NCBI RefSeq assembly: GCF_007483665.1
Contig: NZ_VIQO01000032.1
Coordinates: 1-64,000 of the forward strand
Source: Catellatospora sichuanensis
GTDB taxonomy: Bacteria; Actinomycetota; Actinomycetes; Mycobacteriales; Micromonosporaceae
Length of the DNA: 64,000 nt
Reading direction: 5' to 3'
Below are positions 29,773 through 54,763 of the stretch, piece by piece (position 1 is the stretch's first letter; every line of letters begins with the position of its first letter). The translations under genes were made by a program, and so were the position numbers. The notes under the pieces were generated by a model. The model made no database searches. It was not told the DNA's origin and worked only from the letters and a program-made list of their open reading frames with translations.

Positions 29773-31464
29773 CTAGCCGGTGACGGTCCTCGGCGGGATT
29801 GCTGCGTCGTACTGGAGGTTGCTGGCAGCCTCGCCCTGGCCTGTCTGCGCACGACGGCTGGTCCAGCCGAAGACGCCACCACCGTGCCAGCGGGTCAGCA
29901 CCGGTGTCCTGGTGACGTGCACACCGGCTCGGGAGATCTCCTCGTCCCGGAACATGACCGGGCCGTCCGTGCGTTCCAGGATCCGCCCCGCTGGCAGCAC
30001 CGGTTCCAGGCGCACACCGTGCTCGTCGAAGCGCGGGATCCGGCCGCGCCGGAACTTCACCGCATCCGACCCGGGCCGCAACGGCACAGCCACGAGCGGG
30101 ATCCAGTGCTCGGGCACGGGTGTCTCCAGCCGGTAGGTGAGCGCGTCGGCCGACAGCTGCACAGCCTCCGGCTCGGGCGTTTCGGTGTGCCGAGGCCGGG
30201 GCCGCCCGGTGGCGCCCTGCACGACCCGCTCGATCGCCCACCCGAGGTTTGCCATTTCGTCCCGTACGAACATGACCTCCTCTACCGGGGGGCCTTCCAC
30301 GAGGTGGCCCGCGGTGGGTGGCAGTGGCAGCCAGGCCGGCCCCGGCCGCCCCGTCACGGCGTCGGTGAGGCGGAACACCGACCAGCCGTCCTCGTGAACG
30401 AGGTCGGTGGGTTCGATGTCGACCTCGTCGCCGAACGTGTCGGTGACGGTCAGCGACTTGATCCGGTGCAGCAGGCCGACCTTCAGATCGACCGGGATGA
30501 TCCACCAGTCGTTGCCATACACGTTGGCGAACGAGACGAGCAGCAGCCGGGCGAGATCGACCGGTCCGGCATTGATCGCCGGCAGGTTGACCGTGTCGTC
30601 CTCGAACTCCCACCACCGCTCGGCCGGCATCCCCGGATACCCGGCGCGTGTGGCCAGCGTCCGCGTCTCCGGCGACTCGACCAGCTTCGGCGCCGCGCCG
30701 AGCCCGCGCCCGGGCCGCAGGTCGATGTCGAAGTGGTACCCCTCGACCCGGCCGCCGCTGAACTCCGGCACGGTCAGCCCCACCTCCTGGCCGGGGAACG
30801 AGGCGCCCAGGCTGAACCGGTGCTCCAGCCGCTCCGACACCCAGCACGCCTTACCCGCACCGGGATGCTCGGCGGCGAACCACGCCAGCCACCGCTTTGC
30901 GGTGTCCCGGAAGCGGCCGACCTGGTCACCGGCCAGCCCGGACGGCTGCCAGCCCTCACGGAGCCTGCGGGCGAGCGCGACCGCATCCGGTGCCCGCGCC
31001 GCCAGTACCCGGTGCAGTGACTGCCCGGCCGTGTCGCGGGCATGGATCCCAGCGTCCGGCAGGGGACACGATGCGAGCACGTCGTCGACGGCCTGGTCGG
31101 GGACGGGGCCGAGCATGGTGAGGAACCGCAGCCCGCAACGGGCTGTCTCGCGTACGGTCAGGCCGAGGTCGGTGCCGTGCTCGACCAGGTGCTCCAGCGG
31201 CCGGTCGGTGGGCAGGTCCACTAGGTCACCGGTCTCGCCGGGACGGAACCGGCTGATCGGCGTCGCCTCCGTCGTCAGGCGCGACGCGATGGGCGAACCG
31301 CCGTCCTCACCCTGGAACTCGGCCAGCTGCCACTGCCTGGCCAGCAGGAACAGGGGGTCGGCCACGGTCGCGGCGAGCGCGTCCTCCAGCGACCCGCCGT
31401 GCCGGTCGGGGCGGGTGCGCGGCTCCAGCCGCTGGTACTGCGCGAATCTGGTGTCGTCGGCCAC
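29773..31464 (-). CDS. Giant-operon protein F (unknown, 563 aa)
   Basis: The start is GTG 31464, three bases after the upstream stop, with GGAGAGCGGAG as ribosome site. The N-terminus is LFLLARQWQLAEFQGEDGGS, then IASRLTTEATPISRF. A central GYPGMPAERWWEFEDDTVNL and LLLVSFANVYGNDWWIIPVD follow, and the C-terminal region has WLPLPPTAGHLVEGPPVEEV. It has no signal peptide, no helix long enough for a membrane, and no known catalytic motif. Trp-rich conserved blocks suggest a structural, mixed alpha/beta protein. I recall uncharacterised proteins with the 'RQWQ-G-E-F-x-E-D-x-x-S-P' block in other bacteria, but no function. It is the last gene of the operon; a truncated duplicate lies at 51486-51640. 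Confidence 0.8.
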   Translation of the reverse strand: MADDTRFAQYQRLEPRTRPDRHGGSLEDALAATVADPLFLLARQWQLAEFQGEDGGSPIASRLTTEATPISRFRPGETGDLVDLPTDRPLEHLVEHGTDLGLTVRETARCGLRFLTMLGPVPDQAVDDVLASCPLPDAGIHARDTAGQSLHRVLAARAPDAVALARRLREGWQPSGLAGDQVGRFRDTAKRWLAWFAAEHPGAGKACWVSERLEHRFSLGASFPGQEVGLTVPEFSGGRVEGYHFDIDLRPGRGLGAAPKLVESPETRTLATRAGYPGMPAERWWEFEDDTVNLPAINAGPVDLARLLLVSFANVYGNDWWIIPVDLKVGLLHRIKSLTVTDTFGDEVDIEPTDLVHEDGWSVFRLTDAVTGRPGPAWLPLPPTAGHLVEGPPVEEVMFVRDEMANLGWAIERVVQGATGRPRPRHTETPEPEAVQLSADALTYRLETPVPEHWIPLVAVPLRPGSDAVKFRRGRIPRFDEHGVRLEPVLPAGRILERTDGPVMFRDEEISRAGVHVTRTPVLTRWHGGGVFGWTSRRAQTGQGEAASNLQYDAAIPPRTVTG

Positions 31465-31466
31465 CG

Positions 31467-34400
31467 CTATGACTCCGCTCTCCGGAATTCCGTGAAGCCG
31501 GGCTTGGCGGCCGTCTTCAGGACCAGGTCCTTGAACTTGATGCCCGGCGTGGTGCCGATGGCGCCGTCGGGTAGGTACGCGGCGGGCAGGTAACGGCCGA
31601 GCCAGGTCAGCGTCTCCAGGTCGACCAGGCGCAGCTGTGCGAGGTCGAGCGTCTCGCGCAGTAGCGCGGCCAGGCTGTCCGTGGTCCACGCCGCTCCGGG
31701 CACCGCGGGCATGGCCAGCAGCATCGTGTTGGGCGGCCGCGCGCCGGGCGCGTCGAAGTGGAACGACACGCCGGCGGACTGGACCTCGTCGGGGATCTGC
31801 TCGGCCCACGTGTCGATGACGAGCGCCGCGGTCGGCTTGGACAGGTCGGCGTCGTCCGGTCCGTGGATCACCAGCCCGGTCGCGGGCACCACGGGCGCCG
31901 GACTGCCGTCGTCGAGGCGGTCGGCGCCGATCCACCGGTCTCCGGCGGCGAACGGGGTCTGCCCGGCGCGTAGGGCCAGCGCCCGGCCGGTGCCCGCCGC
32001 GTCGGCGTACAGGAGGAGGTCGCTGAGCGCGGCGACCGCGGGCCGCACCGTGCCGGCCCGGTCGAGCCAGGTCCGGACCGGGTCCCGGGCCGGATCGCCG
32101 CGCCGCAGGTCCGGGCCGAGGGAGCTGTTGAGCACGGCCCCGTTCGGTGGGATGAACAGGTCCGCGGCGCGGAATCCCGGGCCGAACAATGCGGCCAGCG
32201 CCTCCCCGAGGGCATACGTGTCGGCGTCCGATGCGGACCCCCCGTTCAGCGCTGTGCGGGCCGCGTCTAGGCGTGTCTTGGCGACCTTCGCGGCCGACGC
32301 CTTCGCGGCGCGTAGTTCCGCGCTGTTGCCGGTCAGGGCGGTGACCGGGTCGGTGACGCCGTACGCGGCGAGCTGCTGCAGCCATTCTCGTCGCTGCTCA
32401 TCGGTGCCGGTCCCGTCCGGTGGGGCGGTGAGCAGCAGCCGATCCAGGTCATCCAGCGCGCGGGTGACCCGGTTGCGCAGGTCGGCGGGAGGTTCGGCCT
32501 GCGGCGGGTGGGCCGCGGGGGCGAGGTCCGCGGCCGTGGCGGCCCGGCCGGCGGCGAGCGCCGCCGCGACGGCACGGGCCAGCGCGATCAGCTCACCGGC
32601 CCCGACGGCGGTCCGCAGCCACGCCGTGTCCCGGTCGTGGGCCAGCTGCGGCACGGCCTGGGGCGGGGCGCCGGATGGGCGTTGCGCACCCGACCGGGCG
32701 AGCAGCAGCGCTTCGAGGGTGTCGTCGGCCGCGAGCGCGACCACGTCCAGCGCGCATTCGTCGGCCAGGGGCCACGCGTGCTCGGTGATCACGGGCGGGG
32801 CGGTCACGTTCGGGACGTGCCAGGCGATGCGGAGCCGGAGCCGTTCGGTCGGGCCGAACAGGTGACCGGCCCAGGCGTCCAGGCGCGGCTCGGCCAGCGC
32901 CCGCGGCCGCTGCCGCCGCTGCCCGTCCCATCCGGCGGCCGGGGCGAGGCTGCCGGGCACGGCGACGAGGACCCGGTGCGTCACCGGGGTAGCGGAGCGG
33001 ACCAGGTCAAGCACCTGGGGCCGGGGTGGGGGCTGCCCGCCGGCCGCCAGCGAGTCGAGGGTCGCCCCGGCCCGTTCCGGGTTGCCGTGGGCGAGCTGAT
33101 GCACGCTGTCGGCCAGCAGGAGGTCCGCGACGGCGTCGACGTCGTCCTGCAGGGTGTCGAGCGCAGCCCGCAAGGCCTGCTCCTCGGCCGCCGACCATGC
33201 CGGGCGGTCGCCCTGCAGCCTGCCACGGAGCAGGCCGAGCGCCGCGTCGGTGCCCAGCTCGGCCAGCCGAGCGCCGTCGACGACGTCGTGCGCGGCGATG
33301 AACTCCTGCGCCTGCGCCAGAGGGTCCGCCGGGTGGTGGAGCCGGGGCAGGGGCGCGATCTCCCGCAGCGGGTGGATGAACCGGTCGAGTTCGAGCCGGT
33401 CGGCCGGTTCGGCCGCCTCCCGGGCGTCGTGCAGGCGGCGCTCCAGCCGGTAGCCGAACAGCGCCCCGATGTGCTGGCCGCGGCGTACGCCGTCGAGGAT
33501 CGCCATCGCGACCCGCATCCGCCGCGACGACAGGTCGACGGCGAACGCTCCCGGATCGCTCGGGTGCGCGAGGGCGCCGCTGCGCAGGATCGCCGCGGTC
33601 GTCGCCTGCCGCAGCGACGGGGCGAGGATCGAGCCGTCGCTGCGCTGTGCCTCCGGGCGCGGGTGCAGGTCGGTGACCCAGCCGTAGGAGCCCAGCTGGA
33701 TGCCGTGCGGCCGGCGCGACGCGTCGCGCATGGCGGCGAGCCGGGTGGTGGCCAGCGATGTGATCCAGGCGTCGAGCCGGTGCGACACCAGGTCCAGGCA
33801 CTCTCCGAGCAGCCGTTCGACCGCCGGGAACGGGTCCTCGCCCCGGGCGTGCCAGTCCCGGACCCGGCGGGCCAGGTACTGCAGGGCGGCGTCGGCCTCG
33901 ACAAGCCGGGCGCTCCACGGGCGCTTCGGCAGCTTCGCGGCGATGCTCACGTCGGCGTCCAGCCGCCCGTTGCCGAGCCGGGCCTTGCCGACTTCGGTGG
34001 CCAGGACAGCCCGGTCGGCCTGCAGCAGCTGCACGATCGGGGTGTCGGCCTCGGCGGGCAGCTTGGCGTCGAGCAGCGCGCCGGCGTGGAACACCTTCGC
34101 GAGCAGGCCCGTCTTCACCTGGAGCGCCGCCCGGTCGGCCGGGCTGGTGCGGCTGAACACCACTTCCTCGGTGCGCACCTTCGCGTCGGTGACCACCTGG
34201 CCCCAGCGGGCGGTGTGCGCGGCGGCCATGGCGTACTCCCGGTTCGCCGCGTGGCGCAGCAGGGCCTCCAGCAGGGTGGCGGCCTGCTCCGGACCGGTGG
34301 CCAGCAGCAGCGGCTCGACCTGGCTGACCACGTCCTCCAGGAAGCCGGCCAGCACCTCCACCGGGTCGCCGCCGTCCGACGGGAGGCGGCGCACCCAGGG

Positions 34401-36275
34401 CAGCCACAGCCGCGGTGGATCGTCGCCGCCGTCGTTCTGGTGCAGATTGACAACTGGCTGCTGGTAGCCCAGCCACTCGTCCAGGCCGAGCGCACGCGTC
34501 AGCGCCTCGGCGAACCGCCGCTCAGGCGTGTCGTCGCCGCACTGAATCTCGATGTCGCCGAGCACGTTGCGGTAGCAGGCGTTCAGTGCGCCGCGCACGC
34601 CGCGCACCCGGACCGTGCGCGACACCGGCGACAGGCCGAGGGCGCGCAGCACGTCTCGGGCCGCTTTCGGCACCTCCAGGTGCTCACCCGGCTGATCGGG
34701 GCCGCCGACCCGCGGCAGGGTCGGCACCCCGTCCGCCCACAGCGGGCGCAGCGTCTCCAGCAACAGGTGCATCCGGGCCAGCGCGGGCGGTTCCCCCGCA
34801 CCGGCCTGCCAGCCACGGAAGGAGGTGACGGGGAGCAGCCCGTACGGCTGCGCGCCCAGCCGCAGCACCGGCAGCGGCCCGCGAGCGCGTACGTTGTCCA
34901 CGAAGTGGCCGCGCAGCCAGTCGCGGTTCGCGGCGCTGACCGCCTCCCGGTCGCGGCTGGCGCTCTCCATCAGATCGTCGAGGAAGTGCTCGCCGGTCGC
35001 CGTCCACAGCGCCAGTTGCAGGGCGCGCGCGTCGGCCTGCTCGGTGTCGTCGGTGCCCGGGATCCGGGCGAGGCTCTGCGCGGTGACGCCCAGCGCCCGT
35101 GCGACGATGTTGCCGTTGGCGAGCGGGTCGCTCGGCGGGATCTCGTCTCCGGCCAGCAGCAGATCGTCCACGTCGAGCGGTGCTGTCCGCTGCCTGGTGG
35201 CGGTGACGGTGTTGTTGGTCGGCGAGCCCTGCGCCACGAACTCGGCGGTTCCCGTCTCGCGGTGGCCGCGCAGCATCTCCTCCAGCCGGGCAGCGGACGC
35301 GTCGGGGTCCAGCGAGGCCGACACTCCGAGCACCAGCACGTGCGAGAGCAGCGGCACCCGGGCCGGGTCGTGGCCCTGCAGCGGCACGGTGACGGCCAGC
35401 CCGATCTCCTCCGCCGCGCTGTACTCGATCATCCAGCGCAGCGCCAGGTCGGCGACGCCCGCGGCCGACCCGGCGTGCAGGTCGGGGCCGATCGGCACCA
35501 CGTCGGGTACGGTCCGCCCGGCCTTGGCGGCCACCAGGCGGTCACCCTGGTAGGCGAGCACCACGAATCGGTCCGGCAGTGTCGACGCGTGTGCTGCCCT
35601 GCCCCACGCCCGGCCACGCCGCACCAGGTCCGAGGGGAACTGCGGCGAGGGTTCTGCCGCGTCGTCGGGCAGCGGCTGTTCGGGCCGGTCGTCGTGTACG
35701 GGGGTGAGCCGGCGCGCCACCCAGGCGGCCCTGGCCGCACCGAGCGCACCGGCCAGCTGGTCCCACGCCGCGAGCTGGATCCGGCCGCGCTCGGCGCCGG
35801 TGCGCCCGGCCCGCCAGACCGTCCGCCAGTACCGCTCGCCGAGCTGGACCTCGCCGTCGGTCAGCGCCGGCTCGTGCTCCTCGATGTGGACGGCGTCGGG
35901 GAAGATGCGCACCTGCATCGTCGTGGGCGGACCACTGGCCGGCCGCAGCCGCGTCTCGATCCGCACAGGCGTGAGCAGCAGCGGCACCGCGGGATCCAGC
36001 GCGGCGGCCAGCTCGTCGAAGCCGACCGGCTCGTCCAGCTCGGCCCGCAGCAGGCCGTCCAGCGCGCCGCGCCGCGTGGCCACCTCGTCGACGAGCGCGG
36101 CCCGGCCGTGGTCGCGGTCGGTCTCGGCGGCTGTGCTGGGCCGCGTGCCGGCCGCGGCCTGCTCACCGGCCGTGGCGGCGGTGGCCAGGTCGAAGTCGAG
36201 CAGCGCCGACTCCGCAACCGCGACGGCGTGACGCAGGGAGGCGGCCTCGGTGCGAAGCCGCTGGATGTCAACCAT
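31467..36275 (-). CDS. Giant-operon protein E (unknown, 1602 aa)
   Basis: The ATG at 36275 has GGAAGG upstream and overlaps the stop of gene D by eight bases. The N-terminal ~90 residues are helical (VDIQRLRTEAASLRHAVAVA). Recognisable blocks are PLLLTPVRIETRLRP, RVGGPDQPGEHLEVPKAARD and LRLGAQPYGLLPVTSFRGWQ. The C-terminal region has VSFHFDAPGARPPNTMLLAM followed by TLDLAQLRLVDLETLTWLGR. No signal peptide, transmembrane helix or enzyme motif is visible. The size and the lack of repeats suggest a multidomain scaffold. Its C-terminal third (about residues 990-1580) is duplicated in decayed form at 51640-53465, which shows this family once existed in a second locus. Confidence 0.8.
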   Translation of the reverse strand: MVDIQRLRTEAASLRHAVAVAESALLDFDLATAATAGEQAAAGTRPSTAAETDRDHGRAALVDEVATRRGALDGLLRAELDEPVGFDELAAALDPAVPLLLTPVRIETRLRPASGPPTTMQVRIFPDAVHIEEHEPALTDGEVQLGERYWRTVWRAGRTGAERGRIQLAAWDQLAGALGAARAAWVARRLTPVHDDRPEQPLPDDAAEPSPQFPSDLVRRGRAWGRAAHASTLPDRFVVLAYQGDRLVAAKAGRTVPDVVPIGPDLHAGSAAGVADLALRWMIEYSAAEEIGLAVTVPLQGHDPARVPLLSHVLVLGVSASLDPDASAARLEEMLRGHRETGTAEFVAQGSPTNNTVTATRQRTAPLDVDDLLLAGDEIPPSDPLANGNIVARALGVTAQSLARIPGTDDTEQADARALQLALWTATGEHFLDDLMESASRDREAVSAANRDWLRGHFVDNVRARGPLPVLRLGAQPYGLLPVTSFRGWQAGAGEPPALARMHLLLETLRPLWADGVPTLPRVGGPDQPGEHLEVPKAARDVLRALGLSPVSRTVRVRGVRGALNACYRNVLGDIEIQCGDDTPERRFAEALTRALGLDEWLGYQQPVVNLHQNDGGDDPPRLWLPWVRRLPSDGGDPVEVLAGFLEDVVSQVEPLLLATGPEQAATLLEALLRHAANREYAMAAAHTARWGQVVTDAKVRTEEVVFSRTSPADRAALQVKTGLLAKVFHAGALLDAKLPAEADTPIVQLLQADRAVLATEVGKARLGNGRLDADVSIAAKLPKRPWSARLVEADAALQYLARRVRDWHARGEDPFPAVERLLGECLDLVSHRLDAWITSLATTRLAAMRDASRRPHGIQLGSYGWVTDLHPRPEAQRSDGSILAPSLRQATTAAILRSGALAHPSDPGAFAVDLSSRRMRVAMAILDGVRRGQHIGALFGYRLERRLHDAREAAEPADRLELDRFIHPLREIAPLPRLHHPADPLAQAQEFIAAHDVVDGARLAELGTDAALGLLRGRLQGDRPAWSAAEEQALRAALDTLQDDVDAVADLLLADSVHQLAHGNPERAGATLDSLAAGGQPPPRPQVLDLVRSATPVTHRVLVAVPGSLAPAAGWDGQRRQRPRALAEPRLDAWAGHLFGPTERLRLRIAWHVPNVTAPPVITEHAWPLADECALDVVALAADDTLEALLLARSGAQRPSGAPPQAVPQLAHDRDTAWLRTAVGAGELIALARAVAAALAAGRAATAADLAPAAHPPQAEPPADLRNRVTRALDDLDRLLLTAPPDGTGTDEQRREWLQQLAAYGVTDPVTALTGNSAELRAAKASAAKVAKTRLDAARTALNGGSASDADTYALGEALAALFGPGFRAADLFIPPNGAVLNSSLGPDLRRGDPARDPVRTWLDRAGTVRPAVAALSDLLLYADAAGTGRALALRAGQTPFAAGDRWIGADRLDDGSPAPVVPATGLVIHGPDDADLSKPTAALVIDTWAEQIPDEVQSAGVSFHFDAPGARPPNTMLLAMPAVPGAAWTTDSLAALLRETLDLAQLRLVDLETLTWLGRYLPAAYLPDGAIGTTPGIKFKDLVLKTAAKPGFTEFRRAES

Positions 36276-37317
36276 GTACGCCTTCCGTTACAGGACCACG
36301 GGCGGGCACCTCGGCCGCGCCGGGGGACGGGGAGAGCAGCCGGGCGGCCGGGAGCACCAACCGCACCGGCTGCTGGAAGTAGAAGCCCGCCGCGGCGGCG
36401 GAGTTGCCCACCGGCGGCGCCGCGAAGGCCGGGGTGTCGTCGGCCGGGGGCAGGCTGTCGATGCCGAACCGGGGCTCGCATGGCTGCTCGGCTATGACGA
36501 AGCACCACGGCGAGTCGAGCAGCACCTGCTCGGGCAGGTCGAAGCCGATGAACGTGGTCTCCGCGTCGAGAGCGCCCCGGAACATCGGATAGCAGGCCCG
36601 ACCGTCGTCGGGCTGCCGGTCGGCTCCGGTCCCGGTGACCGGCGCGGCGTAGATGACCGCACCCGGGTAGCGGCGCAGCAGTGCGCTGCGCAGCAGCAGC
36701 ACGATCCGGTCGGCGTCCGCGTCGCTGTCGTCGAGCAGGGTGTCCGCGGGCCAGGTGTGCAGCGGAGCGACGTCCGGCCCCGACCCCCAGAACACCGCGA
36801 AGTAGGTGCCGCGCTGGTCGGTGGGGTACTCGCGCCAGCGCAGCTCGCGGGCGAACTCGTGATTGGCGCCCACCAGGTACGACCGGACGAACGCAGCGTT
36901 GGTCAGGGCGACGCAGGCCGTGTCGGGCGGCAGATTGTCCAGCCCGGCCAGCAGCCAGTCGTTGGACAGCGAGCGCCACATCGGCTCTGGGAACGACGGA
37001 GCCCACTGCACCGGGTCCGTGTCGTCGGCCGCCTCCGCGCCCGGCGGCCGCTTGATGCGCGCGCCGAACACCGCCCGCAGCGACCGCACCGGATCGGTCA
37101 GCTCGACCACCGAGCGCCGGACGTCGTCCAGCGGCAGCGTCGCCCGCGGATCGAGCGCGGGCAGGTCCGACGCGTGCAGCAGCCGCTCGTGCGCGTCGAC
37201 GACCATGGCGATCACGTCGGCCCGGGTGGTGCCGAGCACCGCCCGCAGCGGCAGCCGGCCGGCCACCAGCACACGCGCCGCCGACGAGACGATCTTGCTC
37301 AGGGGTGTTTCGGGCAC
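36268..37317 (-). CDS. Giant-operon protein D (unknown, 349 aa)
   Basis: GTG 37317 starts three bases after the stop of gene C. The upstream open frame to 37803 is a shadow of the TPR repeats and is excluded. Features are SKIVSSAARVLVAGRLPLRA, WLLAGLDNLPPDTACVALTN and REYPTDQRGTYFAVFWGSGP, then a C-terminal FYFQQPVRLVLPAARLLSPS. No signal, membrane or catalytic motif. It overlaps gene E, so stoichiometric coupling with protein E is likely. I do not recognise the family. The Trp-rich FWGSGPDV block and the final strand region suggest a globular structural protein. Confidence 0.8.
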   Translation of the reverse strand: MPETPLSKIVSSAARVLVAGRLPLRAVLGTTRADVIAMVVDAHERLLHASDLPALDPRATLPLDDVRRSVVELTDPVRSLRAVFGARIKRPPGAEAADDTDPVQWAPSFPEPMWRSLSNDWLLAGLDNLPPDTACVALTNAAFVRSYLVGANHEFARELRWREYPTDQRGTYFAVFWGSGPDVAPLHTWPADTLLDDSDADADRIVLLLRSALLRRYPGAVIYAAPVTGTGADRQPDDGRACYPMFRGALDAETTFIGFDLPEQVLLDSPWCFVIAEQPCEPRFGIDSLPPADDTPAFAAPPVGNSAAAAGFYFQQPVRLVLPAARLLSPSPGAAEVPARGPVTEGVHG

Positions 37318-37319
37318 GG

Positions 37320-40300
37320 CTATCTCCCGTCGTCGGGCAGTCCGGCCGCGGCGCGGTAGCTCTTGAGCTCCCCCTGTGCCGCGGACAGGAACTGCTTGAA
37401 CCGGTCGGGGTCGAGTTCGGTCAGGGGCTGGAAGGTTTCGACGGCGCGTTCGGCGTAGGGCACCGCCTCTGCCGGCCGGCCGTGTTCGCGGAGCGCTTTC
37501 GCGGCCCAGCGCATGGCCTGCCCGGCGTTGCCGGCGGCGTCGCGGTGGCGTTTGTCGGTGGTGGGGAAGCGCTGCGCCTGGCTGGTGAAGTGGGCGATGG
37601 CACGGTCGACGGAGGCGACGTAGCCGTCGACCGGCCCGATGACGTAGCGGTCGGTGGTCAGCTCCGTCAGGCTCCCCACCAAGAAGGCGTCGTACTTGGC
37701 GGGATCGGCTCCGGCCAGGGGCAGGAAGATCTCGACGGCGCGTTCGGCGTAGGGCACGGCCTCTTCCCGCCGGCCGTGTTCGCGCAGGGCCCTGGCGGCC
37801 CATCGCATGGCCTGCCCGGCGTTGCCGGCGGCGTCGCGGTGGCGTTTGTCGGTGGTGGGGAAGCGCTGCGCCTGGCCCGTGAAGTGGGCGATGGCGCGCT
37901 CGCTCAGGGCGATGAAACCGTCGACGGGGCCGAAGACGTAGCGGTCGCCGGCCAGCTCCGGCAGGCAGGCGATCAGAAAGGCGTCGTAGGTGGCGGGGTC
38001 GAGCCCGGCCAGGGGCAGGAACGTCTCGACGGCGCGTTCGGCGTGGGGCACCGCCTCTTCACGCCGGCCGTGTTCGCGGAGGGCTTTGGCGATCCAGCGC
38101 ATGATCTGCCCGGCGTTGGCGGCGGCGTCGCGGTGGCGTTTGTCGTCGGTCGGGAAGAGCTGCGCCTGGGCGCTGAAGTGGGCGATCACGCGTTCGGCCA
38201 GGGCGATGAACTCCTCGATCGGGCCGATGGTGTTTCGGTCGCCGGCCAGCTCTCCCAGGCTCGCGGCAAGCCACACGTCGTGCCTGGCGGGGTCGAGCTC
38301 GGCCAGGGGCAGGAAGGTCTCGACGGCGCGCTGGGCGTGGGGCACGGCCTCCTCGCGCCGGCCGTGTTCGCGGAGGGCTTTGGCGATCCAGCGCATGATC
38401 TGCCCGGCGTTGGCGGCGGCGTCGCGGTGGCGTTTGTCGTCGGTCGGGAAGAGCTGCGCCTGGGCGCTGAAGTGGGCGATCACGCGTTCGGCCAGGGCGA
38501 TGAACTCCTCGATCGGGCCGACGGTGTACCGGTCGCCGGCCAGCTCCGTCAGGCTCGCCACCACGGAGGCGTTGTACCCGGCGGGGTCCGGACCGGCCAG
38601 GCGGAGGAACGCTTCGACGGCGCGGTGCGCGTAGGCGGCCGATTCTTCGAGCCGGCCCTGCTGGCGCAGCGACTGCCCCAGCGACCGCCACGTAGTGGCC
38701 AGTTTCAGCAGCTGGTCGCCGTCCAGCGAGTCCAGATCGACGGCCAGCGGAATGACGTCGGATACGGGCATGGTGTTTCCATTCGGGAATCGGATGTTGC
38801 CGGACTCGTCGAGCCGGGACTCGGTGAAGAACGATTCCGGCGCCTCGATCTCGGCCATGGTGGACAGCACGAGCGAGTCGTCCAGCAGCGCGTCCGTCAG
38901 GTCCGGCGCGTTCTGCAGGGCGGCGGCGTCGACGATCCGGCGGTTCGCCCGATCGGCGAGCTGCTGCTGGGCCCCGGCCCAGTCGAGCAGGGGCTGGCCC
39001 GACGGCGTCAGGGCCTTCCAGTACGCGGCCAGCCGCGCCCCGTGCAGGATCGCGTCCGGCGCCGTCCGGAAGGTGACCGCGCCGTCCGGCTGCCGGTACG
39101 GCGCGGCCAGCCCGGCCGGGGTCCTGGCCAGCGCGCTGACCGTCTGCCGGAACGGGAAACGGTCGCCGGCGCCCGCCACGCTCGCCGCGACGCGGCGGCT
39201 GAGTGGGCCGCGGGGGCTGGTCGCGCGGTGGTAGGCGAGGGACGCGGTGCCGTCGGGCAGGCCGCTGTCGCGGACCTCACCGTGCAGCGTGAGCGCTCCG
39301 CGTGGCACCCGCGCCTGTAGCGGCAGGCTGACCTCGAACGCCTCCTCCGGGCTGAGCGGGTCGAGGTGGCGCCGGTGCAGCGAGCGCCCGACCAGCCTGG
39401 CGAACCGGCCGAGGTTGAGGAACCGGTTGGCCTCGCGGATGTCGGCGAGCTGCCGCCACGCCGACGCCATGAGCCGCTCCTGGTCGCTCTGCACCGCCAG
39501 CGTGCCCAGGCCTGCGGCCACCCGCCAGCGCGGATCGAGGTTGAGCTCGGCGAACCAGCCGCTCTCGGCGAGCCCGACCCGGTCGCGTACGCGGTGGAAC
39601 CCGCCGTAGCGCGGGGGCAGGACCTCCGGATCGGGGTCGTCGTCGCCGACCGGGGCCGGGGTCAGCCGCCGGTCGAGATCCGCCCGCCACCGCGTGCTCG
39701 TCTCGTCGAAGGGCCAGCCGGCCCGCGTGCCGTCGGTGCCCGTCCGGCGCAGCGCGCTCTCGACCTGGACGGTGAAGCGCCCGGCGCCGTTGCCGACCAC
39801 CATCGGGCGTTGGCCGACGTCGGCGGGCAGGGGCCAGTTGCGCAGCCGGTCGGCGAGGATCTCGAAGTCGCCGGGCTCGCCGGTCCGGAACTCCCAGGAG
39901 AAGTACACCGGGAGTTCGGTCTCCTCGTCGTTGCGCCACGACGGCGACAGGTCGCCCTCCTCGTCGTCGCCGAGTCCCGCCAGGCGTCCCGCCTCGAACG
40001 CGGGCACGACGCATGCGACGTAGTCGGTGAACGCCCGCAGCAGGCGCGAGGCCAGCAGCCGCGAGATCGAGCGGCGCGGGTCGGCTCCGGGTCCCAGGAA
40101 CCCGGCCACCTCCGCGTGCTCGGCGATCACCTGCGAGTGCGCCCACAGGTGCAGCGACAGCGGGTCGGGCAGCTGGTCGCCGGGCGCCCGCAGCACGGGC
40201 AGCGGGCGGCCGGCCTCCCGCCGGGGCTTCCAGCGGGCGGGCAGGCACACCAGCGCCAGCCACGGGCGCAGCGGACCGCGGTCGGGCCCCCGCAGCGGGG

Positions 40301-40589
40301 TGAACATCCACGGCAGGTCGGCCCGGTCGAACTCGACGAGCGGGAAGTTCGTCGTCTCGGCGTCGGCGGTCCCGGGCGGCGGGTAGACGCGCACGATCTG
40401 GCGCTGGTCCAGCGACAGCACGTCACCCGGCCCGTAGAGGGTGATCGGGTTGGCCCTCGAGTTCCCGCCGACCGCGACCGACACCTCGAGCCGCCCGCGG
40501 GCCGGGGCGGGCCGCCGAGTGTCGTCCAGGTCGGACAGCGAGGCGGCAGCGCCGGCCCGTACCCAGGCCAGGAACTGGTAATTGTTCAT
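37320..40589 (-). CDS. Giant-operon protein C with four TPR-like repeats (1089 aa)
   Basis: The ATG at 40589 overlaps the stop of gene B (ATGA). Residues 1-~640 are an unrecognised module starting NNYQFLAWVRAGAAASLSD, with LVEFDRADLPWMFTPLRG and PLRPWLALVCLPARW. Residues ~675-1066 are four tandem 98-residue repeats, each 'ELAGDR-Y-x-x-GP ... HFxxQAQxFPTxDKRHRDAA-NAGQxMRW-ALREHGR-EEAVP-AxRAVExFLPL'. These are TPR-like helical pairs. The repeats are near-identical in protein and DNA, so they were amplified or homogenised recently. TPR arrays usually bind partner proteins; here probably D, E or F. No signal peptide. Confidence 0.8.
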   Translation of the reverse strand: MNNYQFLAWVRAGAAASLSDLDDTRRPAPARGRLEVSVAVGGNSRANPITLYGPGDVLSLDQRQIVRVYPPPGTADAETTNFPLVEFDRADLPWMFTPLRGPDRGPLRPWLALVCLPARWKPRREAGRPLPVLRAPGDQLPDPLSLHLWAHSQVIAEHAEVAGFLGPGADPRRSISRLLASRLLRAFTDYVACVVPAFEAGRLAGLGDDEEGDLSPSWRNDEETELPVYFSWEFRTGEPGDFEILADRLRNWPLPADVGQRPMVVGNGAGRFTVQVESALRRTGTDGTRAGWPFDETSTRWRADLDRRLTPAPVGDDDPDPEVLPPRYGGFHRVRDRVGLAESGWFAELNLDPRWRVAAGLGTLAVQSDQERLMASAWRQLADIREANRFLNLGRFARLVGRSLHRRHLDPLSPEEAFEVSLPLQARVPRGALTLHGEVRDSGLPDGTASLAYHRATSPRGPLSRRVAASVAGAGDRFPFRQTVSALARTPAGLAAPYRQPDGAVTFRTAPDAILHGARLAAYWKALTPSGQPLLDWAGAQQQLADRANRRIVDAAALQNAPDLTDALLDDSLVLSTMAEIEAPESFFTESRLDESGNIRFPNGNTMPVSDVIPLAVDLDSLDGDQLLKLATTWRSLGQSLRQQGRLEESAAYAHRAVEAFLRLAGPDPAGYNASVVASLTELAGDRYTVGPIEEFIALAERVIAHFSAQAQLFPTDDKRHRDAAANAGQIMRWIAKALREHGRREEAVPHAQRAVETFLPLAELDPARHDVWLAASLGELAGDRNTIGPIEEFIALAERVIAHFSAQAQLFPTDDKRHRDAAANAGQIMRWIAKALREHGRREEAVPHAERAVETFLPLAGLDPATYDAFLIACLPELAGDRYVFGPVDGFIALSERAIAHFTGQAQRFPTTDKRHRDAAGNAGQAMRWAARALREHGRREEAVPYAERAVEIFLPLAGADPAKYDAFLVGSLTELTTDRYVIGPVDGYVASVDRAIAHFTSQAQRFPTTDKRHRDAAGNAGQAMRWAAKALREHGRPAEAVPYAERAVETFQPLTELDPDRFKQFLSAAQGELKSYRAAAGLPDDGR
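37392..38567 (-). repeat. Four tandem 294-bp repeats inside gene C
   Basis: Units are 37392-37685, 37686-37979, 37980-38273 and 38274-38567, each encoding 98 residues. The two upstream-most units in the protein are almost identical (shared 'IEEFIALAERVIAHFSAQAQ'). The other pair shares 'RFPTTDKRHRDAAGNAGQAM'. The pairwise pattern suggests stepwise duplication. Confidence 0.9.
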
Positions 40590-43500
40590 CGGCGCACCTC
40601 GTGGGCGGGGATCAGCTGCAGGTTGTCCCGCTGCGCCGCACCGGCGAGCTGCGCGGCGGCTTCGGTGAAGGTCTGCCGGCGGGGCCGGGTGATGTCCTCG
40701 GTGAGCGTGCGGGTGTCCGCCGTCGCGTATGCCCGGGGCAGCAGGATCGGCTCGCGTTCCGGCTGGGCGAGGGCGCGGTCGTCGTCGCGGATGGTGCTGC
40801 GGGCCACGGCGTTGTTGGCCAGTGCCGCCTCGACGAACGCGGCGTCGGCCAGCCGGGTGCCGAGGCTCAGCCCGTCGCCGACCCATTTGGTCTCGTACTC
40901 CATCCGGCGGGACTCGCGCGGCATGGCGAGCGCCGCCGGGGTAGGCGGGACCAGCTCCGCGCCGGAGCGCAGCGGCTCGAAGGCGGGCTCGTGCAGTTTC
41001 TGCTCGTCGGTGAGGTCGAAGAAGTCCGCGCGGGCGAACTGTTCGCGCGTCTGCTTCGTGTGTTCCGGCCCGCCGGCGGCGAAGCCGACCGCCACCTCGA
41101 ACGTCGTCGCCGCGGGCAGGCGCCCCGGCCCGAAGCGGGTCACGGGCACGCCGAGCGGCACCACCCGCTGGCTGAACCGCACCCGCCCCAGCGGATGCAG
41201 CAGGCCCTCCTGGCGGGAGTCGAGCACCACGATGGGCTCGGCGCCCAGCGGCGGCAGCGGCGCCCAGGACCTCGGGTCGCGTACGGCCTTGTCCAGCAGC
41301 GACGCCACATCCGGCGGTGCGGGGGCGGTGATCTGCCCCGTGCAGGCCCAGCTTTCATCGAACGGGAACGACACGGTGGCCAGCGCGATCCGGACCCGCG
41401 CCCGGCCTGCGACGTGCCAGCAGGGCGTAGGGCCCTCCACGAGCACGCTGATGCTCACCGAGCACAGGGTCTCGCCGGCGATCCGCAGCCGGAACGAGCC
41501 GCCGGCCCGCAGCGAGACGCCGAAACTGGGCTCCCAGCGCATCAGCGCGTCGAAGCCCAGCGATCCGCTGACCCCGGTGCTCGACGTCCCCACGTTGACG
41601 TCGAGCTGCGCTCCGATCTGGAGCGTGCCCGGCGTGATCGCCACGTACCCGCGGAAGATGATGCGCAGGAACGGGGTGTCGGCGAGCGGGACCGTCAGCC
41701 GCTTGGGCACCGGGAAGTCCGCGGGGACCGGGAACCCGTCGCGGAAGCCCCCGGCGGAGAGCAGGAACATGGGGTGGTCGCCGGCCTCGACGCGCATGGC
41801 CAGGCCGCCGTCGATCGCGAACAGCGCCAGCCGGGACCCCGTCAGCGTGGCGTCAAGCTGGACCCGGCCACCCGCGGCGTCGATGGTGCCCTTGAACGCG
41901 GCGCGCAGGTCCACGACGGGCGCCTGCGGGGCCGGCAGCGCCATCCGCAGCCGGCCGAGGATCACCGTCCGGCCGGAGTGCAGCTCCAGGATCACGCCCA
42001 GATCCGCGGTGAGGAACGAGACCGGCCTGCCCCAGCCGAGGCGCACCATCGGCCCGACCAGCGCACCGCCCCGCCGCTCACGGAACACCGACGCCAGCGT
42101 GGCGACGACCTGCGGGGCGGCGCTCGCGGAGTCGGCCGGGAACAGCAGGTGGTCGAGGTGGCCGCTCTGGACCGCGGCGCTCAGCCCGTCGTCGTCGACG
42201 GCGTAGTTGACCCCGACCACGCCGCCGATCGCGTTGAGGGTGAACGCGAGACCAAGCTCGATCGGTGGAGTGAAGTGCGCGCTGAGCACGATGAGCAGCG
42301 AGAACGGGTCCGCGCGCAGCAGGCCGAACGCCGCGACGTCGACGATCCCCATCCGGAGCACGAACGCGCCGCCGTACCGGCCGTCGGGGCGCTCGCGCAG
42401 GTAGCCGGCGCCGCGCGCGGGTCCGAGCGCCACGACCAGCCCGGCGCCCGCCGGTGGGACCGGACGCAGCGACGGGGCGGCCCCCGGGGCGGGCAGGCTC
42501 ACCTCGATGCCGGTACCGTCGAGGGTCGCGGCCATGCCGAGCAGGGTGGCGCCCAACGATGCCGTCAGCCGGATGCCGTCTCCCGCCGCGAGCGGCGCGA
42601 GGTTGAGCGACGGAGCCGAGACGCCGTGCGGCACCCCGGACAAGGGCACGTCGATTCCGCCGCTGCTGCCGCCGGTGAACCGTACGCCCTTGGCGTCGGC
42701 GGTGGCGCCCACGCGGCCCTCCAGCACCGCCGCGCCGGGCACCATGAGGTTGAGCAGGCCGCCTGCGGGGAGTCTGACCCGCAGCCGGTCGATCGTGAAC
42801 GACAGTGCCGCCGCCGTCGGGTCGGTGGGCAGCGTCAGGCGCAGCGTGACCGAATCGGCGTCGAGCGCGCCCGCCAGGCGCAGCGCGGGCAGCGTGAAGA
42901 CGAGTTCGGCCGGGTCGGGAACAGTCGTGCCGGTGGCGGTGACCCCGGTCGGGCCCGCCGTCACGACGCCGGGGACGCGCAGGCTCCAGTCAGGCCGCGC
43001 CTGCTCGGCGGCGGCCGCCATGACACGCGTCAGCGCGGTCCACAGCGCGGGTCGCTCGGGTGCCTGGCCCGTATCGAGATCGGTGAGGCTGCGCAGCAGG
43101 TCCCCGGGCTCCAGACCGGGCACCCCGAGCACTTCCGCCAGCGCCGCCCGCCGCGTGTCCGGGCTGGGATCATGCAGCCTGTCCATGGCGGACACGAGCC
43201 TGCTCCGCGTGCCCGCGGCCTGCTCGCCGACCGGCTGCGCAGCACCGGTCTCCCCGGGCTGGCCACCACCCATCCCCGTGGGCGTGGCTTGATAGGTGAA
43301 CTCGGTGAACGGGGGGAACTGCGGGGACACGCCCCTCGGCGTCGTCACCGTGACGGTCACGGTCCCGCCGGTCGGATGTGCCGGCACCGGCACCTCGATC
43401 TCGTCGGGCCGCTCGTCGAGAACACGCAGCCCGGTCAGGTCGGCAGACGCGGAGCCGAAGCTGACCGCCTGCGTGACCGGCCCGAGCCGGTAGCCCAGCA

Positions 43501-44659
43501 CCCTGACCCGGGTGCCGGGGGCGCCCGCAGCGGGCATCAGGCCGAGGACCAGCGGACCTAGGGCGGGAAGCGGGCCGGGAGGCTCGGGGCCGACGTACAC
43601 CCAGGTGTCCTCCCAGGGGGACACGCAGCCGCCTGCCCGGGTGAACACGTTGATGCTGACGATCCCCGTCACCCCGGGGGGCACGACGATGTCGAGCCGT
43701 TCCGGAGTGGCGTCATTGTTGACGATCGTGGTTGCCCATACGTTGCCCACGGAGACGGCTCGCACATCCCACATGCCGGGGCCGAGGATCGTGAACTCCT
43801 TGCCGGTCACGGCGATGCGCTCGGGCAGCTCGATCGTCGTGGGCGCGACCAGGTCGACGATCCCGTCCCCGTCGTCGTCGCGCCAGCCCCAGTACAACGG
43901 AGTGTTCGGGCACAGGTCCGGGGTGCCATGGTTCATGAGGCAGGGCACCTGGTTCAGGTTGAGGACTGCGGGCACCCCGTCGTCGGTGGCGGGGATGATC
44001 GTCGCGCAGTTCGTGTTGACCGTGTCGTACGGCCCGCGCACCTCGGTGGTCAGGCAGTGGGGAAGCCCGTTGGGGAAGTTGCCCGGATATTCGTCAGGGG
44101 CCTGGAAGACGTGGCCGATCTCATGCGCGACAACTTCGTTCAGCATTTTCGAGTGGGTGGCCAGCAGCCACGGCCAGTCGATCACCACGTACCCCTCAGG
44201 AGGCGCGAAGGCCTGGTGATGGCAGTGGTATTTGGTGACGAACAGGGGGACGGCATCGGCCACGCCCCTGCCGCCGAAGGCTGTTGTTCTCAGAACGTCG
44301 CGCAGGGTCCTGATCCGCTGCTCAAAGGGGCCCTCCAGGCCCATCTTCCGGGTCGCGGTATCCATCCATTCCTGGTCGTGCTGCTTGGCCTTCTCCCAGT
44401 CGGGTTCCTTCGGCCACGGCGGCAGGGCCAGTTGACGGGTGCCGTGGGTGACCGTGAACGTGCAGATCCGGCGCACCGGCACCGGCTGCGCGTTGCCCCA
44501 CTGCTCGGAGAGCCTGCGCAATATCCCGGTGCCGGCGTACACCGCCCTGAGCACGGCGGTCTTCTCCGCCTGGGTGAAGCCCGCCGACGAGCCCGCGGGG
44601 CCGTCGGCGAAGACGACCGACACGAGGATGAGTCCGGCCATGGGCCGATAAGGCGTCAT
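40586..44659 (-). CDS. Giant-operon protein B: zinc protease / TIG / DUF6603-like (1357 aa)
   Basis: The ATG at 44659 follows the stop of gene A by one base. Residues 1-~260 contain H179-E-I-G-H183 followed by VFQAPDEY with D189, a metzincin-style zinc site (HExxHxxxxxD). A DDDGDGIVD calcium-type loop lies at 261-269. Residues ~367-456 are an IPT/TIG immunoglobulin-like fold (GAPGTRVRVLGYRLGPV). Residues ~600-1110 have DUF6603 character: LAFTLNAIGGVVGVNYAVDD, DHLLFPAD and a late RVRIALATVSFPFDESW. No classical signal peptide, although residues 7-18 are hydrophobic. A protease fused to a large beta-rich DUF6603 module suggests a self-processing or target-cleaving structural component. Domain calls are pattern-based. 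Confidence 0.8.
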   Translation of the reverse strand: MTPYRPMAGLILVSVVFADGPAGSSAGFTQAEKTAVLRAVYAGTGILRRLSEQWGNAQPVPVRRICTFTVTHGTRQLALPPWPKEPDWEKAKQHDQEWMDTATRKMGLEGPFEQRIRTLRDVLRTTAFGGRGVADAVPLFVTKYHCHHQAFAPPEGYVVIDWPWLLATHSKMLNEVVAHEIGHVFQAPDEYPGNFPNGLPHCLTTEVRGPYDTVNTNCATIIPATDDGVPAVLNLNQVPCLMNHGTPDLCPNTPLYWGWRDDDGDGIVDLVAPTTIELPERIAVTGKEFTILGPGMWDVRAVSVGNVWATTIVNNDATPERLDIVVPPGVTGIVSINVFTRAGGCVSPWEDTWVYVGPEPPGPLPALGPLVLGLMPAAGAPGTRVRVLGYRLGPVTQAVSFGSASADLTGLRVLDERPDEIEVPVPAHPTGGTVTVTVTTPRGVSPQFPPFTEFTYQATPTGMGGGQPGETGAAQPVGEQAAGTRSRLVSAMDRLHDPSPDTRRAALAEVLGVPGLEPGDLLRSLTDLDTGQAPERPALWTALTRVMAAAAEQARPDWSLRVPGVVTAGPTGVTATGTTVPDPAELVFTLPALRLAGALDADSVTLRLTLPTDPTAAALSFTIDRLRVRLPAGGLLNLMVPGAAVLEGRVGATADAKGVRFTGGSSGGIDVPLSGVPHGVSAPSLNLAPLAAGDGIRLTASLGATLLGMAATLDGTGIEVSLPAPGAAPSLRPVPPAGAGLVVALGPARGAGYLRERPDGRYGGAFVLRMGIVDVAAFGLLRADPFSLLIVLSAHFTPPIELGLAFTLNAIGGVVGVNYAVDDDGLSAAVQSGHLDHLLFPADSASAAPQVVATLASVFRERRGGALVGPMVRLGWGRPVSFLTADLGVILELHSGRTVILGRLRMALPAPQAPVVDLRAAFKGTIDAAGGRVQLDATLTGSRLALFAIDGGLAMRVEAGDHPMFLLSAGGFRDGFPVPADFPVPKRLTVPLADTPFLRIIFRGYVAITPGTLQIGAQLDVNVGTSSTGVSGSLGFDALMRWEPSFGVSLRAGGSFRLRIAGETLCSVSISVLVEGPTPCWHVAGRARVRIALATVSFPFDESWACTGQITAPAPPDVASLLDKAVRDPRSWAPLPPLGAEPIVVLDSRQEGLLHPLGRVRFSQRVVPLGVPVTRFGPGRLPAATTFEVAVGFAAGGPEHTKQTREQFARADFFDLTDEQKLHEPAFEPLRSGAELVPPTPAALAMPRESRRMEYETKWVGDGLSLGTRLADAAFVEAALANNAVARSTIRDDDRALAQPEREPILLPRAYATADTRTLTEDITRPRRQTFTEAAAQLAGAAQRDNLQLIPAHEVRR

Positions 44660-44660
44660 C

Positions 44661-45326
44661 TCACAGCTCCCTGACGCAGCCGCCCAGGTCGGGCCTGGGT
44701 CCGTCGAGGCGGTGTGGGTCGAGTTGGGCGAGCAGGTAGGCCGGGTCCAGCATGGAGATCCACGCGGCGACGGACTCGGCCGTCTCCGTGTCGAGGCCGT
44801 CGGGGATCACCGGCGAGTCCGGGGTCACCACGCCGGCGAGCAGCGTGCCGACCATGGCGTCCAGCGTGTCGCGGGTCGCCTGCCCGCCGCCCACCGCCGA
44901 CGCCAGGCGGCCCAGGCCGAGCAGGATCTGGCCGCCGGACCGCTCGACAGCGGCCCGCGCGGCGATCAGGTCGTCGTCGGTGGCCGAGGGCACCGCGACC
45001 ATGAGCATGCCGAGACTCCCGTGGGCCTCGGACAGCGCGGCGATCTCGTCGAGCCGGATGACGGTACGCGGCCCGATGTCGTCGATGACCTCCGCGACCG
45101 GCACGCCCAGCTCCTCGTGCTTGAACCGCGCCACGGCGGCGGCCGTCTCGTTGCCGTAATCGCCGTCAGGCCCGCTGGCAGGCAGGCACGAGGGGTCCCA
45201 CAGCAGCAGCGCGGTCTGCGCCCGGCGCACGGCGGGGGATCTGCGGTGCCGCTGCCGGGAGATCCGCTCCTGGTCCAGGGCGATCGCCTCCAGCAGCGGG
45301 TCACCCGCGAACAGCTGGGACAGCAT
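44661..45326 (-). CDS. Giant-operon protein A: peptidoglycan-binding-like (221 aa)
   Basis: First gene of the six-gene operon. The ATG at 45326 has GGAGG four bases upstream. Residues ~30-95 resemble a PG_binding_1 three-helix domain: AVRRAQTALLLWDPSCLP, DGDYGNETAAAVARFKHEEL, then IGPRTVIRLDEIA. The remaining residues are helical (AWISMLDPAYLLAQLDPH) without known motifs. No signal peptide, so binding to the wall would require non-classical release or delivery. A ~50-bp leader shared with the SNase operon lies 35 bp upstream. The stop precedes the gene B start by one base (TGAGATG). Confidence 0.8.
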   Translation of the reverse strand: MLSQLFAGDPLLEAIALDQERISRQRHRRSPAVRRAQTALLLWDPSCLPASGPDGDYGNETAAAVARFKHEELGVPVAEVIDDIGPRTVIRLDEIAALSEAHGSLGMLMVAVPSATDDDLIAARAAVERSGGQILLGLGRLASAVGGGQATRDTLDAMVGTLLAGVVTPDSPVIPDGLDTETAESVAAWISMLDPAYLLAQLDPHRLDGPRPDLGGCVREL

Positions 45327-45361: not shown

Positions 45362-45411
45362 TAAAGGGGCAATTAGCCTGAATCGGACTCTACTGGCCGG
45401 ATAGCGAAGAC
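45362..45411 (-). promoter_or_regulatory. Shared operon leader, copy 1
   Basis: A 50-bp block ~90% identical to 54764-54813, in the same orientation relative to the downstream gene. On the minus strand it reads GTCTTCGCTATCCGGCCAGT, AGAGTCCGATTCAGGCTAAT, then TGCCCC. TAGAGT would fit an actinobacterial -10 (TANNNT). I see no good -35, so an alternative sigma factor or activator is possible. Confidence 0.65.
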
Positions 45412-45442
45412 GGCTGGACTATTTCGAACGTGTCTTGGCAGG

Positions 45443-45934
45443 TTAGAGCTGTTTGGCCGCCGACGCGTGCAGCCGGTGGCGACGTCGAGTCACCACCGGC
45501 TGCACGGTCACGCGGCCCATGATCGCCGCGGTCGGGGTGGTGTTGCGGTCTTCAGCGATGCGGACCTGTTCGCGCAGGCCGTCGTGTAGTCGGGTGAGGG
45601 TGCCGTCACGCGTCCAGGTCCGGAAGTAGTGGTAGACCGTCGGCCATGGCGGGAAGCCGACCGGCAGCGCCCGCCACACGCATCCGTTGTGGGCCAGGTA
45701 GCGGATGGCGTCGACGATGTCGCGGCGCGGGTAGAACACTGCGCGGCGGAGGCCGCCGGCCGGCACGTAGCGGGCCATGACCTGCCACTCCGCGTCGGTG
45801 GTGTCCGACGGGTACCGGCGTGCGCGGCCGGTGGGCAGGTGCTGGACCTGAGGTGCCGGGGGTGCGGGATCGGCCCGGCCGCAGACCAGGTAGAAAGACA
45901 CTGTGGGGCCTTCGGGACGGCTTGGCGTAGACAA
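45443..45934 (-). pseudogene. IS5-family transposase, 3'-truncated
   Basis: The N-terminal ~120 residues are a DUF4096-type domain: RRYPSDTTDAEWQVMARYVP, DAIRYLAHNGCVWRALPVGF, then HYFRTWTRDGTLTRLHDGLR. After NTTPTAAI the family sequence stops, and 30 unrelated residues follow to the stop. The DDE catalytic half is missing. A 12-bp inverted repeat (45468-45504, TGCAGCCGGTGG and its complement) marks the broken end. It separates the giant operon's promoter from the satellite block. Confidence 0.75.
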
Positions 45935-49297: not shown

Positions 49298-50542
49298 TCA
49301 CACCACCGCCGGGGCGTTGATGAGCTTGGCGAAGTCCGCCACCGTGCCTCGGAAGGCGTTGGCGTCGCAGGTCTGCTGGCCGCCGATAACGGCACGGCTG
49401 CCGAACTGCCAGATGGCGGGAACCCTACCGCTGTACTCGACCCAGCCGCGGCCGGTGTCGCCGCCGCGCGCCTCGTAGAGGTCCTTGAAATTGTCGATGG
49501 CGTTGGGACCGTAGTCGCTGGACCACAGCGGATCGCCGCTGCCGATCGTGTCGCCGTAGCACCAGTTCGGCGCGTAGAGCACCGCGCTCTTGGTGGTGCG
49601 TTTCTCGAGCTGCTCGCACATCTCGAGGCCCACCCAGGGCGGTACGAGGTCGTATGGCCCGTTTTGGTCGGACCAGTGTTCGAGGTCGACCTGCCAGAAC
49701 CAGCCGGGCAGCGTCGCCCAGCCCGGGAACTGCTTGGTCGTCTCGGCCAGGGCGAACTCGACCTGCTGCGTGACCCCGCCGTGGCCGTTGTTGCCCGGTG
49801 TGCGGGGCACGATGTACGCGCCGATGAACGGGATGTCCGCGGCCTTGGCCGCCTTGAACTTCTCACCGGCCCGTGTGTGGACGGTTCTGGTGCCCTCGGT
49901 CACCTTGTGGGTGAAGAAGCTGATCCCCTCCTTGGCCGCGGCCGTGATGTGCGCGGCCCGCATCCCGCGGGTGTGGTCGAAGTCGGAGGCGTCCCAGCCG
50001 AAGAGCCTGCTCGTCGTGGCGACGGGCGTGATCCGGTGGGTCGCCTTGGGCTTGGCCGTTCCCCACTTCTGCTGCGCGCGGGACTCCATTTTCCCCAGCA
50101 GCACCGCCGAGGTGGCGTAGTGCACGTGGTTGTCGTGATCAGGGATCCCGCTCGACGGCTTCTGCGCCCTGATGTTGAAACCGTTGTCGTCACTGAACGG
50201 AGTGGTGTGGAACATCTCGACCGTGAGGTCCCCGAAGTTCTCGTACAGCCACTTCGCCAGGTCCCGCATCTTCGCGGAGTCGACTCCGTTCTTGCCCAGC
50301 TTGCCTGAGCCCGGTCGGCCGAAGGTGACGAAGTCGACCGCGGCGGTAGGCGAGCCGTTGTAGATCTGACCGTTGTGGTGCGACCAGGTGCCGCCATCGG
50401 CTTCGAAGGGCCGGTATGCGGAGCTGACGAAGACTTCATCGGCGGCCGGATACCACTTCTCGACGAAGTCGACGAGCTTGCGGCCGTTCGGGCCGACGGA
50501 CGCCACCCAGTCCGGGCGGAAATTCCATAGTGTGACAGGCAT
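49298..50542 (-). CDS. Bimodular lysin: M15-like peptidase plus GH25 muramidase
   Basis: A 414-residue protein starting at ATG 50542 (AAGGGG upstream). Residues ~40-145 resemble an M15/VanY-type fold: SSAYRPFEADGGTWSHHNG, AVDFVTFG and DHDNHVHYATS supply His/Asp metal ligands. Residues ~185-410 are a GH25 muramidase: LFGWDASDFDHTRGM, EGISFFTHKVTEG, catalytic D-x-E in WQVDLEHWSD, and YAPNWCYG. The pair would cut both glycan and peptide of peptidoglycan, like a phage endolysin. There is no signal peptide, so export needs a holin, lysis or another route. No phage genes are adjacent; it lies in the satellite block of the giant operon. Confidence 0.85.
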   Translation of the reverse strand: MPVTLWNFRPDWVASVGPNGRKLVDFVEKWYPAADEVFVSSAYRPFEADGGTWSHHNGQIYNGSPTAAVDFVTFGRPGSGKLGKNGVDSAKMRDLAKWLYENFGDLTVEMFHTTPFSDDNGFNIRAQKPSSGIPDHDNHVHYATSAVLLGKMESRAQQKWGTAKPKATHRITPVATTSRLFGWDASDFDHTRGMRAAHITAAAKEGISFFTHKVTEGTRTVHTRAGEKFKAAKAADIPFIGAYIVPRTPGNNGHGGVTQQVEFALAETTKQFPGWATLPGWFWQVDLEHWSDQNGPYDLVPPWVGLEMCEQLEKRTTKSAVLYAPNWCYGDTIGSGDPLWSSDYGPNAIDNFKDLYEARGGDTGRGWVEYSGRVPAIWQFGSRAVIGGQQTCDANAFRGTVADFAKLINAPAVV

Positions 50543-51480: not shown

Positions 51481-51485
51481 CGTGC

Positions 51486-53506: not shown

Positions 53507-53536
53507 GAAGTCCCCGCTGCCGTCGAGACGGCGGTA

Positions 53537-53779: not shown

Positions 53780-53793
53780 GGTCGCCCGCCGTG

Positions 53794-54705: not shown

Positions 54706-54763
54706 GGTAGCTCCCGGGGTCGGTGGCCGCAGGCGGTCACGGCACGCGGCCGCCTATCCCCTT

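Follow-up and report, generated by a model that had tools for sequence, protein, structure and literature searches.

An operon of giant proteins in Catellatospora sichuanensis belongs to a conserved cassette with two variable positions

The locus considered here lies on contig NZ_VIQO01000032.1 of the Catellatospora sichuanensis assembly GCF_007483665.1 (9.45 Mb in 65 contigs), within a stretch of 64,000 nucleotides (positions 1-64,000) that we term the window. Translation of the window reveals an operon of six coupled minus-strand genes, A to F, at positions 29773-45326 (Table 1). The tight coupling proposed in the initial annotation is borne out by the coordinates and the translated frames: a single base separates A from B, B and C overlap by 4 bases, C and D lie 2 bases apart, D and E overlap by 8, and E and F again lie 2 bases apart. 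A home-made codon-usage gene caller, whose training set included several of these same operon genes, finds all six and places the start of B 18 bases later. It is plausible that the encoded proteins would form a complex of fixed ratio.

Table 1. Positions of the operon genes, the repeat array, the decayed duplicate and the upstream element in the window
Feature	Position	Strand	Size	Description
Gene A	44661-45326	-	221 aa	PG-binding-like domain in first ~100 aa, then a C-terminal part with no domain assigned; accessory slot gene
Gene B	40586-44659	-	1357 aa	N-terminal HEIGH protease-like and TIG part; DUF6603 C-terminal (41003-42580)
Gene C	37320-40589	-	1089 aa	Conserved N-terminal part, then TPR-like repeat insert
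Gene D	36268-37317	-	349 aa, GTG start	Conserved C-terminal part of the usual C-D protein
Gene E	31467-36275	-	1602 aa	Core, without recognised domain
Gene F	29773-31464	-	563 aa, GTG start	Core, without recognised domain
Tandem repeat array within C	37406-38657	-	4.3 copies of 294 bases	85% matching
Upstream element, copy 1	45365-45443	-		Upstream of A; matches copy 2 at 86% over 79 bases
Decayed duplicate	51479-53475	-		Fragments from the C-terminal half of E and the N-terminal part of F; DNA identity 80-86%
SNase-like gene	53794-54633	-		Slot position of the decayed duplicate
Upstream element, copy 2	54767-54844	-		Upstream of the SNase gene

The domains initially assigned to these proteins stood up in part. 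The DUF6603 region (PF20248) of B scores 303.7 bits against a cut-off of 27 (E 3e-90) and is a member of that family, and the TIG domain of B and the TPR repeats of C likewise pass their curated cut-offs. The HEIGH motif is present in B, with a weak M6-domain match (E 0.0029) that stays below the cut-off, but the PG_binding_1-like match in A reaches only 18.6 bits in Pfam, under the cut-off of 23. D, E and F are as unrecognisable as first described, having nothing above curated cut-offs in Pfam or NCBIfam and weak matches at most in PHROGs, and the operon contains, again in agreement with the first reading, no recognised phage, tail or secretion gene. No function has been assigned to the DUF6603 family, which among the core proteins accounts for a single part of B. 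A second context for this family was observed in genomes without F, where it occurs in open frames of 3316-3543 aa (G004:C29:33679, G007:C1:5374671 and G179:C22:74617).

A profile of F searched against 84,980 genomes recovered 278 stretches encoding a relative, of which the best 80 were kept. Among these 80, 61 loci extend at least 9 kb upstream of F, and every one of them has C, D and E ahead of F with order and strand unchanged; a DUF6603-type B gene is present in 39 of the 40 upstream regions fetched, the exception being L172. B, C, D, E and F also lie together, in the same order, in 5 of the 6 loci of the first relatives, the sixth being a 6.3-kb contig with E and F only. The window has all five parts on one strand and in this order. 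F and DUF6603 further co-occur across genomes: in a family sample of 150 genomes F is present in 21 and DUF6603 in 23, with 19 shared (Fisher p 3e-18), and in a phylum sample of 396 genomes the corresponding counts are 10, 12 and 8 (Fisher p 2e-12). Of the genomes with F only, those of the family sample show no more than a fragment where a contig begins (G100) and a remnant of 34 residues (G144), and those of the phylum sample show partial matches (G471, G510); four genomes per sample have DUF6603 without F (G004, G007, G013 and G179; and G013, G448, G463 and G546). In plasmids, F occurs in 14 records and B in 13, all 13 of them shared, the odd one having F without B in the record. Finally, distances between pairs of loci, compared over 70 of 76 loci, agree among C, D, E and F with r of 0.92-0.97, against a largest value of 0.14 in 500 shuffles, as expected for genes travelling as a block.

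An architecture in which B (by its DUF6603 part), C, D, E and F form one conserved unit is well supported. The earlier suggestion of a co-inherited set of giant proteins that can be placed in no known system is sustained by gene order, co-occurrence and domain searches; an independent occurrence of the families in other genomes, named at the outset as a refutation, is not borne out for B (DUF6603 part), C, D, E and F, whereas A lies outside the core. Of the core parts only DUF6603, itself a family without function, could be placed. None of the libraries searched gives the core families a named function, and genes that together exceed 10 kb and keep their order across ten phylum-level groups, including archaea, point to a whole unnamed biological system.

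The first of two variable places in the cassette lies between the C and D parts. Of 79 loci, 76 encode C and D as a single continuous frame (one locus, retrieved from two collections as L023 and L062, being counted twice), so that their description as separate genes does not reflect the norm. In the window the frame is interrupted by a stop and restarts two bases on; C and D are also apart in two other fetched loci and in L053, a likely frameshift. The C-D protein ranges from about 859 to 1773 aa, the starts being approximate, and carries a middle insert of varying length. A domain scan of 40 of the 76 proteins at E 0.01 identified FG-GAP_3 in 8, DUF3892 in 4, and a laminin-G-like domain and a weak Kelch match in 1 each; in the window the 294-base repeat array occupies the middle. 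The insert aligns in all 38 close pairs measured of 45 listed (one pair being a single locus fetched twice), with 62-100% identity, and the alignment of inserts between close relatives indicates that insert turnover is slow. In the 7 close pairs of relatives analysed for constraint, the dN/dS of the core genes is 0.03-0.68, below 1 in all 7; constraint on the insert is weaker than on C, E and F in 7 of 7 pairs and weaker than on D in 6 of 7.

The second variable place is the slot beside B. A same-strand gene lies within 400 bases of B in 30 of 40 upstream regions and is absent in the other 10. Of the 30 slot genes, 28 were scanned, leaving out L150 (similar to L148) and L169 (a 120-aa call); with one protein able to match several families, the matches comprise PhoD in 13, DUF7800 in 4, PG_binding_1 in 3, peptidase M64 in 2, and PLD and a ferritin-like family in 1 each, and the slot gene of L185 seems to have been split off from B. 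In the window the slot is occupied by gene A, which is accessory. Its domain turned up nowhere but in the window, in 2 of the 30 genomes or records searched and in 2 of 72,556 plasmid records, and A can therefore not be retained as a core member. In these two plasmid records, from Streptomyces and Nocardia, the A domain respectively begins a PLD protein and lies inside an S8 peptidase, both near the cassette. The idea that the assembly engages the cell wall drew on this accessory domain and is accordingly weak. Likewise, core status of the protease and TIG half of B finds no support: all six B genes compared from sister Streptomyces align only from about residue 473-521 of window B. Enzymes of the T6SS Tle1-like lipase and PLD types both occur near the cassette on one Streptomyces plasmid, but no T6SS gene is listed in the 41.7-kb stretch of that plasmid (its gene table being incomplete), and the lipase and PLD are accessory there. 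Upstream of A, the window contains a minus-strand gene at 46361-48160 with a calcineurin-like phosphoesterase match just below the cut-off and a hydrophobic C-terminal part; by Pfam it does not belong to the PhoD type that occupies the slot in relatives.

The contents of the two variable places bear on whether the cassette could specify a released extracellular multi-enzyme complex, dedicated to nutrient (notably phosphate) scavenging or to envelope remodelling. PhoD-like phosphatases (PF09423), of which the window operon has none, are the commonest recognised product of the slot among relatives (13 of 28), and PLD and SNase likewise act on phosphodiesters. The FG-GAP and laminin-G-like inserts, together with the names given to haloarchaeal plasmid versions of the cassette (L108, L113 and L115, with E of up to 3124 aa), in which F is annotated as a lamin tail domain protein and a BGTF-surface name also appears, are in keeping with such a complex, as FG-GAP, laminin-G-like, lamin-tail and BGTF-surface domains are all typical of surface proteins. 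However, a strict hydropathy heuristic detects a signal-like N-terminus in 0 of 28 slot proteins and 0 of 74 F proteins, so that release would need lysis or another route. Classical PhoD is Tat-exported, whereas the PhoD-like slot proteins have no signal-like N-terminus by this heuristic. We consider a secreted scavenging or remodelling complex unlikely, though still a serious rival. The heuristic suggests that core and slot proteins are without export signals, with one exception that qualifies the initial statement that the operon encodes no signal peptides: five of the six window proteins have no signal-like stretch, but window B, alone among 28 B proteins, has one, being hydrophobic from residue 6. 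As to membrane helices, no 19-residue window in the six proteins has a mean hydropathy above 1.67; some B proteins of relatives have single 19-residue windows of 1.9-2.05, which were not counted as membrane helices.

A decayed duplicate of the operon lies upstream of it in the window (Table 1). Just upstream of the duplicated E and F pieces are a stretch matching 9 of the first 10 residues of A, an 80-aa frame and the SNase-like gene. Both A and the SNase gene are preceded by a 48-base core of the upstream element, with 94% identity between the copies; within the window, 30 bases of this core are found at these two places and nowhere else (none expected by chance), and of the fetched loci only two, which overlap the same places, contain a 24-base part. 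Because of the E and F pieces, the match to the start of A, the SNase gene and the shared element, the whole stretch of 51479-54844 may be read as the remains of a second operon whose slot contained a nuclease and whose middle was later lost. Other features were noted nearby: an IS4/5-family transposase fragment (DUF4096; 45443-45934, minus strand) adjoins the operon upstream, a GH25-like protein below the Pfam cut-off (49298-50542, minus strand) lies between the intact and decayed copies, and a plus-strand frame at 51251-51706 with the motif HEIGHFFG resembles a metalloprotease fragment, with no Pfam match.

The phyletic spread of the cassette was traced with an alignment of 74 F proteins (the window, 69 of the best 80 loci and 4 first relatives), which left out close relatives and L081, whose frame has a stop. 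The resulting tree spans ten labelled phylum-level groups, two haloarchaea included, and shows 21 label changes, against a minimum of 9 and a shuffled mean of 40.3. The window F groups with those of six Streptomyces (100/100), apart from the F proteins of the same genus in L021 and L062, and F is present in 3 of 11 genomes of the window's genus, its own included. This patchy distribution is the pattern of probable horizontal movement, to which paralogy and bin errors could contribute.

Patchy spread and carriage on plasmids would also suit an intracellular immunity complex, in which a product of a phage or plasmid would be sensed by the insert, and the enzyme from the slot would act inside the cell, with no need of export. 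The apparent lack of export signals and the variety of slot enzymes (nuclease, phosphatase, lipase, protease) speak for it, but no NTPase or known sensor domain is recognised in the core, and the inserts change slowly. Across 105 outer neighbours, PADLOC matches are likewise dispersed, with at most 3 per family among the 25 of 32 families listed, a count made without background control. We judge an immunity function rather improbable, while keeping it in contention.

Comparisons with known machines yielded few affinities. Sequence searches with F, E, C-D and B turned up no relative whose structure is known. F, the sole protein modelled, gave a fair model with a mean pLDDT of 81.5 and a pTM of 0.79, and one structural comparison of this model returned no convincing match. 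With contractile injection systems the cassette shares, by analogy only, a constant core, a variable binding part and a variable enzyme; those systems have a sheath, tail and baseplate, whereas the six operon proteins match no tail, sheath, tube or baseplate family in Pfam, NCBIfam or PHROGs. That the cassette could be an accessory or cargo set of such systems receives some encouragement from a sheath gene in 19 of 29 genomes selected among those with F (in 16 of them above the cut-off) and from a weak association of sheath with DUF6603 in the phylum sample (4 of 12 genomes with DUF6603 against 32 of 384 without; p 0.017). Yet six of the 29 are related Streptomyces, the phylum sample shows no association of sheath with F (2 of 10 with F against 34 of 386 without; p 0.23), the nearest linkage of cassette and sheath seen spans about 24 kb in one genome, and no sheath was matched in the genome of the window itself, all of which makes this relationship very unlikely. 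An origin as a phage or prophage module is more improbable still and is largely ruled out by near-absence from phage collections: a single record of 50,697, unannotated, unverified and labelled Bacteriophage sp., carries B to F, IMG/VR contributed one marginal partial match, and none of the six proteins has a PHROGs structural match.

The reading that we favour, to which we assign a probability of about 0.4, is that the cassette encodes a scaffold built in the cytoplasm and equipped with an exchangeable enzyme and an exchangeable binding module, probably for use in biological conflict. The operon would be one member of a widespread and probably horizontally moved cassette, whose core proteins B (DUF6603), C-D, E and F would come together in the cytoplasm as a single large, soluble scaffold. 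The insert between the C and D parts might then serve as a binding-type module (FG-GAP, singly Kelch or laminin-G-like, and TPR-like in the window), and the gene beside B would often supply an enzyme or docking domain, such as a PhoD-like phosphatase, an M64 peptidase, PLD or a PG-binding-like domain. In the window this part may be played by A and the HEIGH protease-like part fused to B, and by SNase in the decayed copy. Target recognition by the insert could allow the scaffold to bring the enzyme to its target, in action against other cells or mobile elements. From the directly observed conservation, order and co-occurrence of the cassette, the matching distances and the two variable places, together with the patchy spread and the SNase gene of the decayed copy, we infer a physical complex, roles for the insert and slot, and a role in conflict; the A domain in plasmid PLD and S8 proteins, and slot and F proteins without signal-like N-termini, also count in favour. 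Against the conflict scaffold stand the slow turnover of the inserts, the 10 empty slots in 40, outer neighbours without a theme, the signal-like stretch of window B, the four genomes per sample with DUF6603 and no F, and the slot gene of L185 as a likely piece of B. Moreover, a PhoD-like phosphatase would be atypical as a toxin, and neither an immunity gene nor a delivery apparatus was identified. More tentatively, the cassette could represent an undescribed class of machine, derived from neither phage tails nor known secretion systems and common to bacteria and haloarchaea; its core scaffold would carry plug-in target binders and hydrolases against other cells or mobile elements. Because the core is constant while its binding and enzyme positions can be exchanged, the function is directly testable.

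Beyond the cassette, a scan of 105 of the 137 listed outer neighbours shows no shared theme, with no Pfam or PADLOC family shown having more than 5 members. The gene after F falls into one BLAST group in all seven sister Streptomyces loci (L027-L033), and 5 of 28 scanned downstream genes match WD40, with five of the 28 coming from L027-L033 and L031 among the named matches; a plasmid sister also has a WD40 protein after F. Elsewhere in the window, at 59157-63794 on the plus strand, a large protein combines an nSTAND1 NTPase domain with more than 20 WD40 repeats, encoded by repeat DNA with a period of about 126 bases and copies that are 80-84% identical.
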